A stretch of DNA of 64,000 nt from Halomonas sp. CUBES01 (GTDB taxonomy: Bacteria; Pseudomonadota; Gammaproteobacteria; Pseudomonadales; Halomonadaceae), in assembly GCF_020991005.1 (NCBI RefSeq), contig NZ_JAJLLW010000001.1, forward strand, positions 496,001 to 560,000. The letters run 5' to 3'. Made by a program: the position numbers and the translations under genes. The notes under the pieces were generated by a model. That model was not told where the DNA came from. It worked only from the letters and a program-made list of their open reading frames with translations, and made no database searches. Shown one piece after another: positions 7,659 to 59,445 of the stretch (positions within the stretch are counted from its first letter, which is position 1; each line of letters starts with the position of its first letter).

Positions 7659-8561
7659 ATGCCAACGGTTACGTTAGGTATTAATCCGCTCACCTGGACG
7701 AACGATGACTTGCCCAGCCTGGGGAGCGATACGCCCCTGGAAACCTGCCTTCAAGAAGGGCGCGAAGCGGGTTTTAGCGGCTTTGAACTGGGCAATAAAT
7801 TTCCTCGCACGCCTGACGCCTTGAACAAAGTGCTGGGTGCTCATGACTTGGCGCTCGTTTCGGGCTGGTACTCCGCACGCCTGCTTGAGCGTAGCCCAGA
7901 AGAAGAGATTGAAGCCGTTCAGGATCATATGAACCTGCTCAAGCAGTGTGGGGCCAAGGTCATGGTGCTGTGCGAAGTTACCCACTGTGTACACGGCGAC
8001 CAGCAACGCCCGCTCTCCCAGCGTCCGCATCTTTCTGATGAAGAGTGGCAGCGCCTGCTGCATGGCCTGGATGTGGTAGGCGACTACCTGAAATCCCAGG
8101 GCATACAGCTGGTGTATCACCACCATCTGGGCACGGTGATCGAAAGCCAGGGCGACGTTGAGCGCTTAATGGACAACACCGGCGAAGGCGTGGGTCTGCT
8201 GCTCGATTTTGGTCATCTGCGCGGCGCTGGCGGTGACCCGCTCGCCATCGCCAAACGCTACAGCCAGCGTATCCACCATGTGCACTGCAAAGACTTGCGC
8301 TTCCCGGTGCTGGACGCCGTGCGCAACCGCGACAAAAGCTTTTTAAACGGGGTGCTGGACGGCCTGTTTACGGTGCCCGGGGATGGCAATGTGGATTTTT
8401 TGCCCGCCTTAACCCACCTGTGCGAACAGGGCTATCAGGGTTGGTTAGTGGTTGAAGCCGAACAAGACCCGGAAGTCGCTCATCCGCTGACTTATGCCCG
8501 TCTGGGTTACCGTAACTTACGCCAACTTGCCGAGCAGGCGGGTTTTAACGTTGCCAGCTAA
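7659..8561 (+). CDS. iolE: IolE: myo-inosose-2 dehydratase
   Basis: A 300-residue TIM-barrel protein of the xylose-isomerase-like/AP-endonuclease-2 superfamily. It dehydrates 2-keto-myo-inositol (inosose) to the dione used by IolD. The start [19 protein letters not shown] and the segment [13 protein letters not shown] are typical of IolE. Metal-ligand segments include [20 protein letters not shown] and HHVHCKDLR. The reading frame is open for 31 codons further upstream into iolD, but the ATG at 7659 with AAGG about 9 bp before gives the family-typical N-terminus. It lies 31 bp after iolD in the same operon. Confidence 0.94.
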
Positions 8562-8596
8562 ATAGCGCCAGCGCCGCACTTGAATCAGGAGTTTGT

Positions 8597-10099
8597 ATGA
8601 AGACGCTATCCCACTATCTCAATGGTCAGTTCTCTGCCGGTCAGAGCCAGCGCACTTCGCCAGTTTACAACCCGGCCACCGGTGAACAGAGCGCCCAGGT
8701 GGCGCTGGCCAGTGCCGACGAGACCCGTGACGCAGTGCGCATTGCCGATGAGGCCTTTGTCGCCTGGTCAAAAACCTCGCCGCTGAAGCGCTCGCGCATC
8801 CTGTTTAAGTTTAAAGCGCTGGTTGAGGAGCACACCGATGAGCTGGCGCGGCTCATATCCAGTGAGCATGGCAAGGTGTTTTCTGACGCTAAAGGTGAAG
8901 TGACTCGCGGCCTGGAAGTGGTTGAGTTTGCCTGCGGCATTCCCCACCTGCAGAAAGGAGAGCACTCCATGAACGTGGGTAGCGGCGTCGATAGCTACTC
9001 GATGATGCAGCCGCTGGGCGTGTGTGCAGGTATCTCGCCGTTTAACTTCCCTGCCATGGTGCCCATGTGGATGTTCCCCATCGCGCTGGCCTGCGGCAAC
9101 ACCTTTGTGATGAAGCCTTCGGAAAAAGATCCCTCTACGCCGCTGCGCTTGGCCGAGTTGTTAAGCGAAGCGGGTCTGCCGGATGGCGTCTTTAATGTCC
9201 TCAACGGCGATAAAGAAGCGGTGGATGTGCTGCTCACCGATGAGTGCGTCCAGGCGGTAAGCTTTGTGGGCTCCACGCCCATCGCCGAGTACATCTACGC
9301 CACTGCCTCCGCCCATGGCAAGCGCGTTCAGGCCCTGGGCGGGGCTAAAAACCATATGGTGATCATGCCCGATGCGGATCTTGATCAAGCCGTGGGGGCC
9401 CTGATGGGCGCTGCCTATGGCTCGGCAGGCGAACGTTGTATGGCGATTTCCGTGGCAGTGCCCGTGGGTGAAGAAACCGCCAACCGCCTGCGGGAAAAGC
9501 TGGTGGCTGAACTGGATAAACTCACGGTCGGGCCTGGCTTGGTCGATGGCCCGGATAACGACATGGGCCCGCTGATCACCCGCGAACACCGGGACAAAGT
9601 GGCAGGCTATATCCAAACCGGCGTGGATGAGGGAGCAGAGCTTGTTGTGGACGGCCGCCAGACAACGATAGAGGGCGCGGGCGATGGCTATTTTATTGGC
9701 GGAACGCTATTTGATCGTGTGACGCCAGAAATGCGCATTCACTCTGAAGAAATCTTCGGCCCGGTGCTGGCGATTGCTCGCGTGGCGAGCTTCGACGAAG
9801 CCGTCAGCATGATCAATGCCCACGAGTTCGGCAACGGTACGGCGATCTTTACCCGGGATGGCGACGCGGCGCGTCAGTACTGCGAGCAGATCCAGGTCGG
9901 CATGGTGGGCGTTAATGTGCCGATTCCAGTGCCCATGGCGTTCCATAGCTTCGGCGGCTGGAAGCGCTCGCTGTTTGGCCCGCTGCATATGCACGGCCCC
10001 GACGGTGTACGTTTCTACACCCGCATGAAGACCATCACCCAGCGTTGGCCCAGTGGCATTCGTGAAGAGACCAACCACTTCACCATGCCGACCATGTAA
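8597..10099 (+). CDS. iolA: IolA/MmsA: CoA-acylating methylmalonate/malonate-semialdehyde dehydrogenase
   Basis: A 500-residue aldehyde dehydrogenase of the MmsA subfamily, the last enzyme of inositol breakdown. It converts malonate semialdehyde plus CoA and NAD to acetyl-CoA and CO2. Landmarks are [20 protein letters not shown], the NAD-binding [13 protein letters not shown], the [15 protein letters not shown] stretch and the nucleophilic Cys in [18 protein letters not shown] near the C-terminus is the MmsA signature. It is 35 bp downstream of iolE and followed by a strong terminator. A second paralogue of the same subfamily is encoded at 42524-44020, beside an omega-aminotransferase. Confidence 0.95.
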
Positions 10100-52662: not shown

Positions 52663-53322
52663 ATGACACCGGATTATCTGGGGGAATTTCTTGCCCTGGC
52701 CGCCATACACTTTCTTGCAGTCGTGGCGCCGGGGCCGGATTTCGCCGTCACGATTCGCCAGAGCGTGCTCTATGGGAGGCGTCTAGGCATCGCTACGGCG
52801 GTCGGCATTGGGGCCGGTATCTCGGTACATGTGATCTATACCTTGCTGGGGGTCGGCGCGTTGATGCACACAACCCCCTGGTTACTGAGTGCGGCCGAGT
52901 TGGTGGGCGGAGCCTACCTGTTATATCTCGGCGTCACGTTCATCCGGCAGGCAGGTAAGCACACAGCCGGGCTGGCGCTGGATGCTGGATCCGAGACAGG
53001 GGCAAGGAATTTTCACCAGTCGTTCGCGCTGGGGTTTCTGACCAATGCGACCAACCCCAAGGCGACGCTGTTTTTCCTGGCCGTGTTCACGACTGTGGTC
53101 AGTGATTCGACGCCATTGCGCATTCAAATGCTTTATGGCAGTTGGATGTGCCTGGTCAATGCCGGTTGGTTCGTATTGGTCAGCCTTGTGTTCACCAGCC
53201 CGCCTGTTCGCGAGCGTTTTCTGCGTATTGGTCACTGGTTCGAGCGGTTGATGGGAGTGCTGCTCATCGCCTTTTCGATGCGTTTGTTATGGGGGCTCGG
53301 AGGCATGATGGTTACTTTTTAA
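52663..53322 (+). CDS. LysE/RhtB-family amino acid exporter
   Basis: A 219-residue protein with six predicted helices. HFLAVVAPGPDFAVTIRQSVLYGRR near the N-terminus contains the family signature (APGPDF), and GAYLLYLGVTFIR and FALGFLTNATNPKATLFFLAVF follow. LysE/RhtB proteins export amino acids such as homoserine, threonine, lysine or leucine. The start is one base after the oxygenase stop, with GGAG inside the oxygenase gene, so the two are translationally coupled. It would export the oxygenase product. Confidence 0.92.
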   Translation: MTPDYLGEFLALAAIHFLAVVAPGPDFAVTIRQSVLYGRRLGIATAVGIGAGISVHVIYTLLGVGALMHTTPWLLSAAELVGGAYLLYLGVTFIRQAGKHTAGLALDAGSETGARNFHQSFALGFLTNATNPKATLFFLAVFTTVVSDSTPLRIQMLYGSWMCLVNAGWFVLVSLVFTSPPVRERFLRIGHWFERLMGVLLIAFSMRLLWGLGGMMVTF

Positions 53323-55634: not shown

Positions 55635-56522
55635 CTAGCGCGGAACGTCATTTTCATGCGTTTCTATGAAACCTCTACCCATGAACACCGCGTTACCGCC
55701 CACCGTCACCAAACCAGGCTCGATCTCGCCATTGGCGGCGGTGTGGATAATGCTGGGCCGCCCCATTTCAACGCCTTGGTGAATCGCGCAGTGCAGAGGG
55801 CCTGGTTGCCTTGATGCCAAGTAGCCGGTCAATGCTGCGGCGGCACTGCCGGTGGCTGGGTCTTCACCAATGCTGGTATGCATACAAAACATACGGCTGC
55901 GCACCACGAATTCCAGCTCGTTGGGCTGCTCCACCACGTAAAGGTAGATCTGTTCGGCGCCGCTGGTTGCCACATTTTCTGCCCATGTGGTCGGTGATAT
56001 CTGAACGCTCGCTAAAGATGCTACGTCTGCCAGCTCAATCAAATGGTAGGGCAGCCCGCAGGAGGCTACCACCGGTTCGCCCATCACCTTAGAGGGTTCA
56101 AGCCCTAACAGCCTTGCGGCGGTGGTTTGATTAAGCGGGCTACCTTCTACTCGGGCGGGCTGGGAGGTTGTGAAGGTGGCGCTGTCCTGTGCAAAACTAA
56201 CCGCTAACTCGCCGACCGGTGGCGCTAACACCAGAGGGTGCTCCCGGTTGACTAGGTTCAGTTCTGCTAGCAGGTGCGCGGTGCCGACGGTGGGGTGGCC
56301 GGCAAACGCCAGCTCGATTGTCGGCGTAAAAATGCGCATAGGGTAGTGATTCGGCCCAGAGGCGGCGCTTAAAAACACCGTTTCAGCCAGATTAAGCTCA
56401 TTGGCCAACGCCTGCATGGTGTGGGTGGTGAGTCCTTTAGCGTCAAGAAACACCGCCAATGGATTGCCCGTAAACGGCTGATCGGTGAAGACATCCAGCA
56501 AGTAATACTCAGCGGTTTTCAT
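55635..56522 (-). CDS. PhzF-family isomerase-like protein
   Basis: A 295-residue PhzF/DAP-epimerase-fold protein: YYLLDVFTDQPFTGNPLAVF at the start, catalytic Glu in NLAETVFL, and the C-terminal GEDPATGSAAAALTGYL with its active-site segment. Phenazine-biosynthesis PhzF homologues are widespread with unknown substrates. AGGAGGG lies just before the chosen ATG (56522); a further ATG directly upstream is closer to the site. The gene's start overlaps the remnant of a DUF1127 gene. Confidence 0.9.
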   Translation of the reverse strand: MKTAEYYLLDVFTDQPFTGNPLAVFLDAKGLTTHTMQALANELNLAETVFLSAASGPNHYPMRIFTPTIELAFAGHPTVGTAHLLAELNLVNREHPLVLAPPVGELAVSFAQDSATFTTSQPARVEGSPLNQTTAARLLGLEPSKVMGEPVVASCGLPYHLIELADVASLASVQISPTTWAENVATSGAEQIYLYVVEQPNELEFVVRSRMFCMHTSIGEDPATGSAAAALTGYLASRQPGPLHCAIHQGVEMGRPSIIHTAANGEIEPGLVTVGGNAVFMGRGFIETHENDVPR

Positions 56523-56625
56523 CATTCCCTCCTGTTTGCGGCGAGCACTGCCAAAAAGGTTTACGACCCTCTTTTCTCGCCTGTTCGCGGGTGATGCCGA
56601 TATCGTCCAGTAACCGGGCGTCAAG
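56509..56625 (-). pseudogene. C-terminal remnant of a DUF1127 gene
   Basis: On the minus strand the frame reads LDARLLDDIGITREQA then RKEGRKPFWQ before a TGA at 56509-56511. This is the characteristic C-terminus of DUF1127 proteins (a short small-protein family). No N-terminal half is present upstream, where a MocR remnant on the other strand begins. It overlaps the start of the phzF-like gene. Confidence 0.7.
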
Positions 56626-56961
56626 CGCCAGTATCAGCGCCAGCGCGACATCATGGTCAGTTGGGCGCAGCGCTATTTTCCTGAAAGTTCTGGCATCAGC
56701 TACCCGCAGGGCAGTTTTTTACTCTGGGTAGAGCTGCCCGCCGCCGTGGACTGTGTGCGCCTCAATGAACGCTTGGCACAGCATGCTATCCACGTGGCGC
56801 CTGGCTCGCTGTTTTCCGCCTCGGGCAAGTTTCGACAATGTCTGCGTCTAAATTATGCGTTTACGTTAACCCCCGCCATCGAAGACGCCGTGCGCACCGT
56901 GGGCGAGCTGGCCGCTGAGATGGTGGCAGATGCGCAGGCGCATGCCGTAGGTGTGGCGTAA
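56617..56961 (+). pseudogene. C-terminal remnant of a MocR-type (GntR/aminotransferase) regulator
   Basis: The frame is open from a stop at 56611-56613 and reads VKRQYQRQRDIMVSWAQRY, FPESSGISYPQGSFLLWVELP and HAIHVAPGSLFSASGKFRQCLRLNYA, the last ~110 residues of a MocR regulator. The winged helix and PLP-binding part are missing. An ATG within the remnant (56653) could give a 102-residue protein, but this would have no function known for the family. Confidence 0.75.
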
Positions 56962-56973
56962 GTAGTGCTCCTT

Positions 56974-58467
56974 TCAATTGGTCGCGAAGGCCGTCAGAAG
57001 CGAGTCGGTGAGTGTTGGTGCGGGATTGGCGCCGGTCAGAATGGTGGCGATGTGGGCGTTTTCAGGCCACTGACCACGTATGGCATAGGCGGCTGCTAAA
57101 CCGAGTGCCCCTGCGGGCTCCAGTAGCAGCCCCAGGTGTTCCAGGCCCAGGCGCATGCCATCTTCGATACTGGCTTCGTCCACCAGCCAGATATCATCGA
57201 CTAGATCGCGCATATCTTCCAATGCCTCGGTAATGGGAGCGCGAACCGCCACCCCATCTGCCATGGTATCCACCCGATCATTAGTGACGAGCGTACCGCG
57301 CCTCCAGCTTTGCCAGGTGGCATCCGCGCCTTGAGGGCAGATGCCAATCACCCGGGTGGCGGGGGAAGAGGCTTTGAACCAGCGGCCTACGCCGTTTATA
57401 AGCGCGCCATTACCAAGGGGCACCAGCAGCGTATCGAATGTGTCATCGTGGGCGAGCATTTCGACCGCAATAGTGCCTGCGCCCTCGGTAATCGCGGCTT
57501 GTCGGCCATCCTCTACAAACAAGCCACCGTGCTGTTGAGCAAAGTGAGCCGCCGCCTGTTTGGCCTGATCAAAGTCCTCTCCCGCGCTGATGACCTCCGC
57601 GCCCAGTGCGCGGATGCCCGCGATTTTGAGTGGGTTAGCATTTTCAGCGACAAAGACGCTGAGAGGCAGCCCGTGCTGCTTGCAGGCATGCGCCAGCGCT
57701 AGCCCCCAGTTACCGGCGCTGGCGCAAACCAGTGGTGCAGGTTTTTTTTGCTCAATATGATGTGAAACAAAATGGTCGGCACCGCGCCCTTTGAAGTTGC
57801 GGAGGGGGTTGAGCGTTTCGACCTTCACTGTCATGGCGACCCCTAACGCAGCATCGAGTGATGGCGAACGATACTGTGGGGTTGCCAGAAAGGTGGGGGT
57901 GATGTATCTGGAGGCAGAAGCAATGTGATCCAGCATGATGCGGTGCTCGCTACGTTGGGGCGCAATTAGCTCTGCGTGGCGAACGATCGGCTGCAAATCC
58001 TCCGGATGCTCTATCCGATCCACCATTAGCACGCCATCAAGGTGGTCAACCTCGTGCTGGATCAGTTCGGCCAGTGATGCTGAAAGGTGATGCCAGTGGC
58101 AGGTTTTGCTGCTTTCATTCTGGTACGTCAGGCTGATGCTGGCGTGGCGCTTAACATGGGCAATATGGTTGGGCACGCTCATACAGTCGTCCCATACCGG
58201 CTGCGTCTCTTCACTTCGCCAGACAATGACTGGATTGATCAATGTAAACGGGCGGCCACCCAACTGAACCGCCACGATGCGCAAGGGTTCGCCTATTTGA
58301 GGGGCAGAGATGGCACGGCCATAGCCGGTACGTGCCCGAAAGTCGGCAAGTGTGGCATGCAGTTCGGATATCACCTTGGCTATATGGGACGTGATGTCTT
58401 CTATTGGTTGGGAGATGGCTCTTAAGCGTGGGTCGCCCTCGGTCAGGATCGTGCGTATTTGGCTCAT
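56974..58467 (-). CDS. Fusion of peptide-deformylase domain and PLP-dependent ammonia-lyase-like domain
   Basis: A 497-residue two-domain protein. Residues about 1-165 are a peptide-deformylase fold: GYGRAISAPQIG (48-59), Cys95 in DDCMS (in place of EGCLS) and H138-E139-V-D-H142 keep all the metal ligands and the catalytic Glu. Residues about 185-497 are a fold-type II PLP enzyme like threonine dehydratase: Lys226 in NFKGRGADHF, SAGNWG (250-255) and PLGNGALINGVG. Fusion of the two is not one I know. It may deformylate an N-formyl amino acid and then eliminate ammonia; this is inferred. It diverges from an Lrp-type gene. Confidence 0.82.
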   Translation of the reverse strand: MSQIRTILTEGDPRLRAISQPIEDITSHIAKVISELHATLADFRARTGYGRAISAPQIGEPLRIVAVQLGGRPFTLINPVIVWRSEETQPVWDDCMSVPNHIAHVKRHASISLTYQNESSKTCHWHHLSASLAELIQHEVDHLDGVLMVDRIEHPEDLQPIVRHAELIAPQRSEHRIMLDHIASASRYITPTFLATPQYRSPSLDAALGVAMTVKVETLNPLRNFKGRGADHFVSHHIEQKKPAPLVCASAGNWGLALAHACKQHGLPLSVFVAENANPLKIAGIRALGAEVISAGEDFDQAKQAAAHFAQQHGGLFVEDGRQAAITEGAGTIAVEMLAHDDTFDTLLVPLGNGALINGVGRWFKASSPATRVIGICPQGADATWQSWRRGTLVTNDRVDTMADGVAVRAPITEALEDMRDLVDDIWLVDEASIEDGMRLGLEHLGLLLEPAGALGLAAAYAIRGQWPENAHIATILTGANPAPTLTDSLLTAFATN

Positions 58468-58580
58468 GGAGTTGTCTCTGCCTGTATGGTTAAGTTCTTT
58501 GCTTGAGTTGCGTTAGCTTAACGGGCAAGACTTTTTCACTGGCCGCATATCCTGGCGGGCCATTGCGGGGAGACTGCATA

Positions 58581-59072
58581 ATGAGTGATCAAACTGCGGG
58601 CGAGCGGCCCGCGGATCAATTGGATGATTTTGATCGGCGGATTTTGGCTATTTACCAGCACGATACGCGTGTGACGGGGGAGAGTATTGGGCAAGCGGTT
58701 GGCTTGTCGGCGGCGGCGGTTCAGCGGCGACTCAAACGGTTAAGGGCGCGGGGTGTTATTGTCCAGGAGGAGGCGCGTTTAGATGCCAAAGCACTAGGCT
58801 TGCCAACTACCTGCATCGTCGGTGTCGATCTTGACTATGAGCGTAACCAGCATGTCGATGAGTTCAAGCAGCGGATGCGGGAGCACCCCAATGTGCAGCA
58901 ATGCTATTACGTGACAGGGAATTTGGATTTCGTTTTGGTGGTGGTGACTCGTACGCTGCAGGAGTATGAAGATTTCACCCGCGAGGCGCTGATGGAGCAC
59001 CCTAACGTGCGTTCGTTCACAACACTGGTTTCCATGGACGCCGTCAAATCGGGATACGCGCTGCCTCTATGA
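58581..59072 (+). CDS. Lrp/AsnC-family transcriptional regulator
   Basis: A 163-residue Lrp-type regulator with an N-terminal extension of about 15 residues, helix-turn-helix (DDFDRRILAIYQHDTRVTGE, then GLSAAAVQRRLKRLRARGVI) and C-terminal RAM domain (QCYYVTGNLDFVLVVVTRTL). It diverges from the deformylase/PLP fusion gene with 113 bp between starts, so it probably responds to the amino acid handled by that enzyme. GGGGAG lies before the ATG at 58581; the frame is open 26 codons upstream. Confidence 0.9.
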   Translation: MSDQTAGERPADQLDDFDRRILAIYQHDTRVTGESIGQAVGLSAAAVQRRLKRLRARGVIVQEEARLDAKALGLPTTCIVGVDLDYERNQHVDEFKQRMREHPNVQQCYYVTGNLDFVLVVVTRTLQEYEDFTREALMEHPNVRSFTTLVSMDAVKSGYALPL

Positions 59073-59103: not shown

Positions 59104-59445
59104 CTAAGCAAAGCCGAGGAACAGGGCCAGCGAGCGGTTAATCGTCACCATGGTGCTGTCGTCAAGTTGACCGAAGGGCTCGCCTAGCTTGTCACGTTTT
59201 ACCGTCATGGGTTTGTCCACCATGACCTGGGATCGCTTGCGCAAGCCGTTTTCCAACGTAGGCATCACCTCAATACGCATCAGTGGCGCATCAATGAGGG
59301 TGCTTGAAATCAATAGTAAGGTGACAGTCGCGGTGGAAGAGAATTGATCGGATTGTATGATCAGTGCTGGGCGCGGTTTACCAAACTCCCCGGGTGGGGT
59401 AACCGTTACCAGATCTCCGCGCCTCATGCTTTTCATACTGCTCAC
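59104..59445 (-). CDS. mazF: MazF/PemK-type toxin
   Basis: A 113-residue CcdB/MazF-fold protein: RRGDLVTVTPPGEFGKPRPALIIQSD at the N-terminus has the family's PGxxGKPRPALI pattern, TVTLLLISSTLI follows, and KRSQVMVDKPMTVKRDKLG is the conserved catalytic strand. Such toxins cut mRNA at short sequences. It starts with GTG overlapping the antitoxin stop by four bases (GTGA), which couples the two genes. Confidence 0.9.
   Translation of the reverse strand: MSSMKSMRRGDLVTVTPPGEFGKPRPALIIQSDQFSSTATVTLLLISSTLIDAPLMRIEVMPTLENGLRKRSQVMVDKPMTVKRDKLGEPFGQLDDSTMVTINRSLALFLGFA

Follow-up and report, generated by a model that had tools for sequence, protein, structure and literature searches.

An Altered Peptide Deformylase Domain Fused to a Pyridoxal Phosphate-Dependent Lyase-Type Domain in Halomonas and Other Bacteria

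A two-enzyme gene in Halomonas

We analyzed a 64,000-nucleotide window of the Halomonas sp. CUBES01 genome (contig NZ_JAJLLW010000001.1, positions 496,001 to 560,000), in which a single gene encodes a peptide deformylase (PDF) domain joined by a linker to a pyridoxal phosphate (PLP)-dependent domain of the fold-type II ammonia-lyase kind (PALP) (Table 1). The continuous 497-codon frame reported in the initial annotation is intact and followed by a stop codon; it lies on the minus strand, which that annotation had left unstated. Both domains match their Pfam models well above the cut-offs (PF01327, 124.3 bits versus 22.8; PF00291, 234.7 bits versus 35), and AlphaFold2 models the fused protein confidently in both (predicted local distance difference test [pLDDT] = 93.2, predicted template modeling score [pTM] = 0.91). 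The active-site residues read from the window earlier, namely, the metal ligands at C95 and in HEVDH (138 to 142), K226, and SAGN (250 to 253), are all present and conserved in relatives, and the replacement of EGCLS by DDCMS (residues 93 to 97) is likewise confirmed, the shifted DDC motif holding across the family.

The same architecture is common among homologues. Both Pfam domains are present in 119 of the best 120 homologues listed, the window's own protein counted (8000 candidates scored, 3752 database hits), the sole exception being a PALP-only protein of 290 amino acids (P0008). Full-length copies with 88 to 91% identity occur in three further Halomonas records (L005, L006, and L008), and another Halomonas genome (G444) carries a full-length frame at 91% identity. 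These two-domain homologues and full-length copies exclude an assembly artifact as the source of the fused frame. In Halomonas olivaria (L007, about positions 8001 to 9490), the fused frame is broken near residue 370 into parts of 372 and 124 amino acids, which represents either a broken copy or a sequencing error.

TABLE 1 Features of the Halomonas sp. CUBES01 window (coordinates of the PDF domain, the WDDCMSVP motif, and the PALP domain were computed from residue numbers)
Feature	Position	Strand	Details
Fused gene (P0001): PDF domain, linker, and PLP fold-type II ammonia-lyase domain	56974..58467	-	497 codons plus stop, intact
PDF domain, residues 5-155	58003..58455	-	Ligands C95, H138, H142; general base E139; Q57; PF01327, alignment, PDB fold match of the domain alone
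WDDCMSVP subfamily motif, residues 92-99	58171..58194	-	EGCLS in housekeeping PDF; from residue numbers, checked on DNA
PALP domain, residues 190-479	57031..57900	-	Schiff-base K226, SAGN 250-253, GNGAL loop; PF00291, alignment, fold match
Divergent Lrp/AsnC-type regulator	58503..59072	+	Likely ATG near 58581
MocR/aminotransferase-like frame	56653..56961	+	102 codons
PhzF-family isomerase gene	55635..56624	-	TIGR00654, 186.7 bits
PemK/MazF-like toxin-family frame	59104..59445	-	PF02452
LysE/RhtB-type amino acid exporter	52663..53322	+	PF01810

The deformylase domain belongs to an altered subfamily

Catalytic residues of the deformylase half are strongly conserved: C95, E139, H142, and Q57 are invariant in 38 of 38 aligned fusions, and H138 is kept in at least 90%. 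Modeled and searched on its own, the domain gives a PDB fold match. Several features distinguish it from peptide deformylase proper (Def; PF01327, TIGR00079). Motif I reads GR[AG][ILMV][AS]AxQ here and GxGLAAxQ in Def; DDC stands in place of EGC (226 of 240 subfamily rows carry DD, and all 10 housekeeping-type frames carry EG); the PDF subfamily carries a Glu four residues ahead of HExxDH; and a PLP enzyme is attached. The fused protein also scores below the cut-off of the true-PDF equivalog TIGR00079 (93.0 versus 103.95), whereas the same genome's own def reaches 184.3; compared with that def, five extra residues precede motif I in the fusion. Since a def-fmt pair is located elsewhere in this genome, and since a second, other PDF was found in all 20 searched genomes that have the two domains fused or paired as adjacent genes, the fused PDF half is not the housekeeping PDF. 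The shared name "peptide deformylase" is probably misleading for these proteins.

One further residue, R51, is invariant in all 38 aligned fusions and lies within the substrate-binding segment. In Escherichia coli PDF, the backbone nitrogen of Ile44 binds a ligand carbonyl, according to PMC3101196; gap placement between R51 and the Ile44 position is ambiguous and varies between alignments.

The lyase domain resembles threonine and serine enzymes

In a PDB fold search, the closest folds to the PLP half are TdcB and serine racemase, both threonine/serine enzymes, and all 38 aligned fusions keep K226. Relative to catabolic threonine/serine ammonia-lyase (TdcB) and serine racemase (PF00291), the fusion falls under every NCBIfam cut-off listed (TIGR01127 and other equivalogs; best score, 186.8 versus 378.75, among the 25 of 43 families listed) and carries an N-terminal PDF in place of a C-terminal ACT-like domain. 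ACT-like domains are found fused to threonine dehydratases. Two aligned serine racemases have FKIRG and SSGNH where the fusions have FKGRG and SAGN[WF]G. Ala251, invariant in 38 of 38, stands at the position of the racemases' second catalytic Ser (SSGN), which we take to be Ser84 of human serine racemase; in an alignment that includes two solved racemases, this Ala disfavors serine racemase activity for the PLP half.

The two domains have been brought together repeatedly

A scan of genome contigs matched at least 591 stretches, 575 of which were confirmed, and the best 80 were kept, representing 79 loci. These comprise 27 fused genes (including the interrupted L007), 2 pairs of adjacent separate genes (L061 and L077, in each of which PALP is followed by PDF on one strand), and 50 PALP genes alone, and no PDF remnant was detected in the 50 stand-alone PALP loci (tblastn, E ≤ 1e-3). 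The initial annotation had considered that homologues might always be two separate genes; fused and separate neighboring arrangements both exist. Pseudomonadota, Acidobacteriota, Planctomycetota, and Myxococcota are among the named phyla in which fusions occur. Within the class and family of Halomonas sp. CUBES01 the fused gene is rare and accessory: at E ≤ 1e-60 it was found in 1 of 274 genomes class-wide, namely, that of the window itself, and at E ≤ 1e-40 in 3 of 201 Halomonadaceae genomes. We searched 48 genomes for PDFs (those of 18 of the 27 fused, both paired, and 28 of the 50 stand-alone loci), and a subfamily PDF (E ≤ 1e-30) is present in all 18 fused and both paired genomes.

Phylogenies of the two halves indicate a recurrent association. 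The fused state requires 10 changes on the PALP tree (94 rows), at least 5 of which are forced by well-supported branches, and on the PDF tree (81 rows), a single clade of fused PDFs is rejected (approximately unbiased test, p-AU = 0.0019). The PDFs of the two adjacent pairs fall in two different, otherwise stand-alone, clades, with L077 placed more weakly than L061. Both are quick trees without bootstrap, and long branches make placing unsure for L028 and L029 on the PALP tree and for L028, P0145, and L077 on the PDF tree. The trees show a clear interchange between fused and stand-alone forms, with gains not distinguishable from losses.

The two-enzyme architecture is real, conserved, and repeatedly assembled, and it recurs across several bacterial phyla. 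Its parts are of known kinds; the new element is their combination, together with the altered deformylase subfamily. Database labels on such proteins are "peptide deformylase," "threonine dehydratase," or both, and because some sources name them "threonine dehydratase/peptide deformylase," the architecture is already visible in databases. We found no published description of this fusion in the open-licence literature.

Gene neighborhoods of fused and stand-alone genes

Neighborhoods were compared by BLAST clusters over the 79 loci and by reading most fused and some stand-alone loci by eye. The divergent Lrp regulator described in the initial annotation is present in the window and extends across the family only in part: 12 of 27 fused genes have an Lrp relative upstream, as do 1 of 2 pairs and 9 of 46 stand-alone genes (the 46 of 50 loci that hold at least 700 bp upstream), and it is divergent everywhere except at two Vibrio loci, L016 and L018.

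Stand-alone PALPs from Deinococcota offer a parallel. In 5 of 10 such loci, the PALP gene has an M20 gene upstream on its own strand, the available upstream sequence being too short to judge in two of the ten (L031 and L048). Four of the five M20 proteins were scanned with TIGR01910 (ArgE/DapE); one passes (224.9 versus 217.6), three fall under the cut-off (205.3 to 216.5), and the fifth (L060) was assigned by BLAST cluster only. As in the fusion, an amide hydrolase able to free an alpha-amine stands near the same kind of PALP, but here the hydrolase fold is unrelated and the genes are separate and not always adjacent. What these settings share is an amide hydrolase close to a lyase requiring a free amine. 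At L059, a CN-hydrolase gene sits between M20 and PALP.

In Acidimicrobiia, stand-alone PALPs are flanked by aspartate kinase/methyltransferase and aspartate-semialdehyde dehydrogenase genes, a context that hints at threonine and not at a formyl group. A conserved row of aspartate kinase, S-adenosylmethionine (SAM) methyltransferase, PALP, and aspartate-semialdehyde dehydrogenase is present at L050, L054, and similar actinobacterial loci. By eye, the surroundings of eight stand-alone subfamily PDFs are uninformative.

A possible route for N-formyl amino acids and its alternatives

We propose a bifunctional enzyme that acts sequentially on a small free N-formyl amino acid, by deformylation and then beta-elimination to a 2-oxo acid and ammonia, and we give this proposal about an even chance of being correct. 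The metal-dependent PDF half would hydrolyze the N-formyl group, yielding formate and the free amino acid from N-formyl amino acid and water, and the PLP half would then perform a serine/threonine-type beta-elimination of that amino acid to a 2-oxo acid and ammonia. Because a PLP enzyme builds its external aldimine on a free alpha-amine, an N-formyl substrate would have to be deformylated first; we infer this order, and also that the substrate is a free N-formyl amino acid and not a peptide. Our guess for the amino acid is serine or threonine, which is favored by the fold neighbors, the alanine in SAGN, and the aspartate-family genes around the actinobacterial relatives. The divergent Lrp/AsnC regulator probably controls the fused gene. 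The predicted breakdown of an N-formyl amino acid, as the initial annotation suggested, is the simplest mechanism that fits; indirect support comes from the recurrent association, the non-housekeeping PDF subfamily, and the position of some stand-alone lyase relatives near deacylase genes.

Several observations weigh against this proposal. The deformylase and lyase halves each often occur without the partner: a subfamily PDF was found in 0 of the 28 stand-alone-PALP genomes searched (none at E ≤ 1e-22; many are incomplete metagenome-assembled genomes), and the lyase seems not to need it. Conversely, all eight Acidobacteriota genomes searched that have a stand-alone subfamily PDF lack such a PALP on the contig carrying the PDF, and no PALP match elsewhere in these genomes exceeds 37% identity. 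Besides Lrp, no recurring gene was recognized beside the fusion in distant relatives by BLAST clusters or by eye (most neighbors were not family-scanned), and no neighboring gene names the substrate. Even in Deinococcota, the M20 gene is directly adjacent to PALP in only two of the five loci (L035 and L060), with another frame intervening in the other three.

The deformylase fold might instead serve another acyl or amide group (acetyl, carbamoyl, cyclic amide, or peptide), with its product still feeding the lyase so that the two-step logic is kept. We consider this unlikely but worth weighing, as the whole subfamily departs from the usual motif I and from the EGC motif, invariant R51 lies in the substrate-binding segment (where gap placement is ambiguous), and the amide hydrolase near the Deinococcota PALP is an ArgE/DapE-type deacylase rather than a PDF. 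The catalytic PDF residues are kept, however, and the PDFs known to us are formyl-specific. That same conservation bears on a structural explanation, in which the PDF half would be one more ordinary peptide deformylase, with the fusion aiding folding, oligomerization, or regulation of the threonine/serine dehydratase in the manner of fused ACT-like domains: a purely regulatory domain would not need conserved metal ligands and a catalytic Glu. The sub-cut-off TIGR00079 score also argues against an ordinary PDF, and a structural role hardly explains the two loci (L061 and L077) where the enzymes are separate neighbors and the PDFs belong to other lineages, all of which makes this explanation rather improbable.

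Clearance of formaldehyde adducts is very unlikely; in such a scheme, N-formylcysteine (from thioproline) or N-formylserine/threonine would be deformylated and the resulting Cys, Ser, or Thr then eliminated. Fold-type II PLP enzymes include cysteine desulfhydrases, which would suit this scheme, but the nearest folds are threonine/serine enzymes, and no formaldehyde or proline-dehydrogenase gene was recognized beside the fusion (by eye, from the first 90 to 110 residues per neighbor). PMC9814826 reports conversion of thioproline to N-formylcysteine in bacteria, in favor of the scheme, and calls an N-formylcysteine turnover enzyme hypothetical in mammals. In Methylobacterium extorquens, a preprint (PMC13131673) links reduced PDF activity to higher formaldehyde resistance and describes thioproline as no driver of toxicity; these data point elsewhere, though they concern the housekeeping def.

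If the proposed breakdown of N-formyl amino acids is correct, a widespread accessory PDF subfamily would be tied to amino acid catabolism, giving the fold a second, metabolic role, and bacterial nitrogen and one-carbon metabolism would gain a testable branch in free N-formyl amino acids. PDF is an essential enzyme of protein N-terminal processing and an antibiotic target, and to our knowledge almost no bacterial catabolism of free N-formyl amino acids has been described; the fusion may indicate an undescribed route for using them. A more ambitious reading, which we regard as distinctly doubtful, would have the fusion dedicated to salvaging or detoxifying free N-formyl amino acids, with PDF as a plug-in joined several times to a Ser/Thr/Cys lyase. 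At its boldest, this reading would supply a missing clearance enzyme, a single chain that turns N-formylcysteine or N-formylserine/threonine derived from formaldehyde into formate, ammonia, and a 2-oxo acid.

Other genes near the fusion

The 102-codon frame within positions 56626 to 56961 looks like a C-terminal remnant of a MocR/aminotransferase-type gene. Similarity of this region to the Halomonas loci L005, L006, and L008 stops at 56626, beside the PhzF gene, and the longer copy of the MocR/aminotransferase-type gene in L005 has an internal stop. In L130 and L131, PhzF-like frames recognized by eye are likewise found close to stand-alone WDDC deformylases, which may be chance. A PemK/MazF-like toxin-family frame is present as well (Table 1), and the LysE/RhtB-type exporter, which scores 149 bits with TIGR00949 (under the cut-off of 184), lies about 3.7 kb from the fusion.
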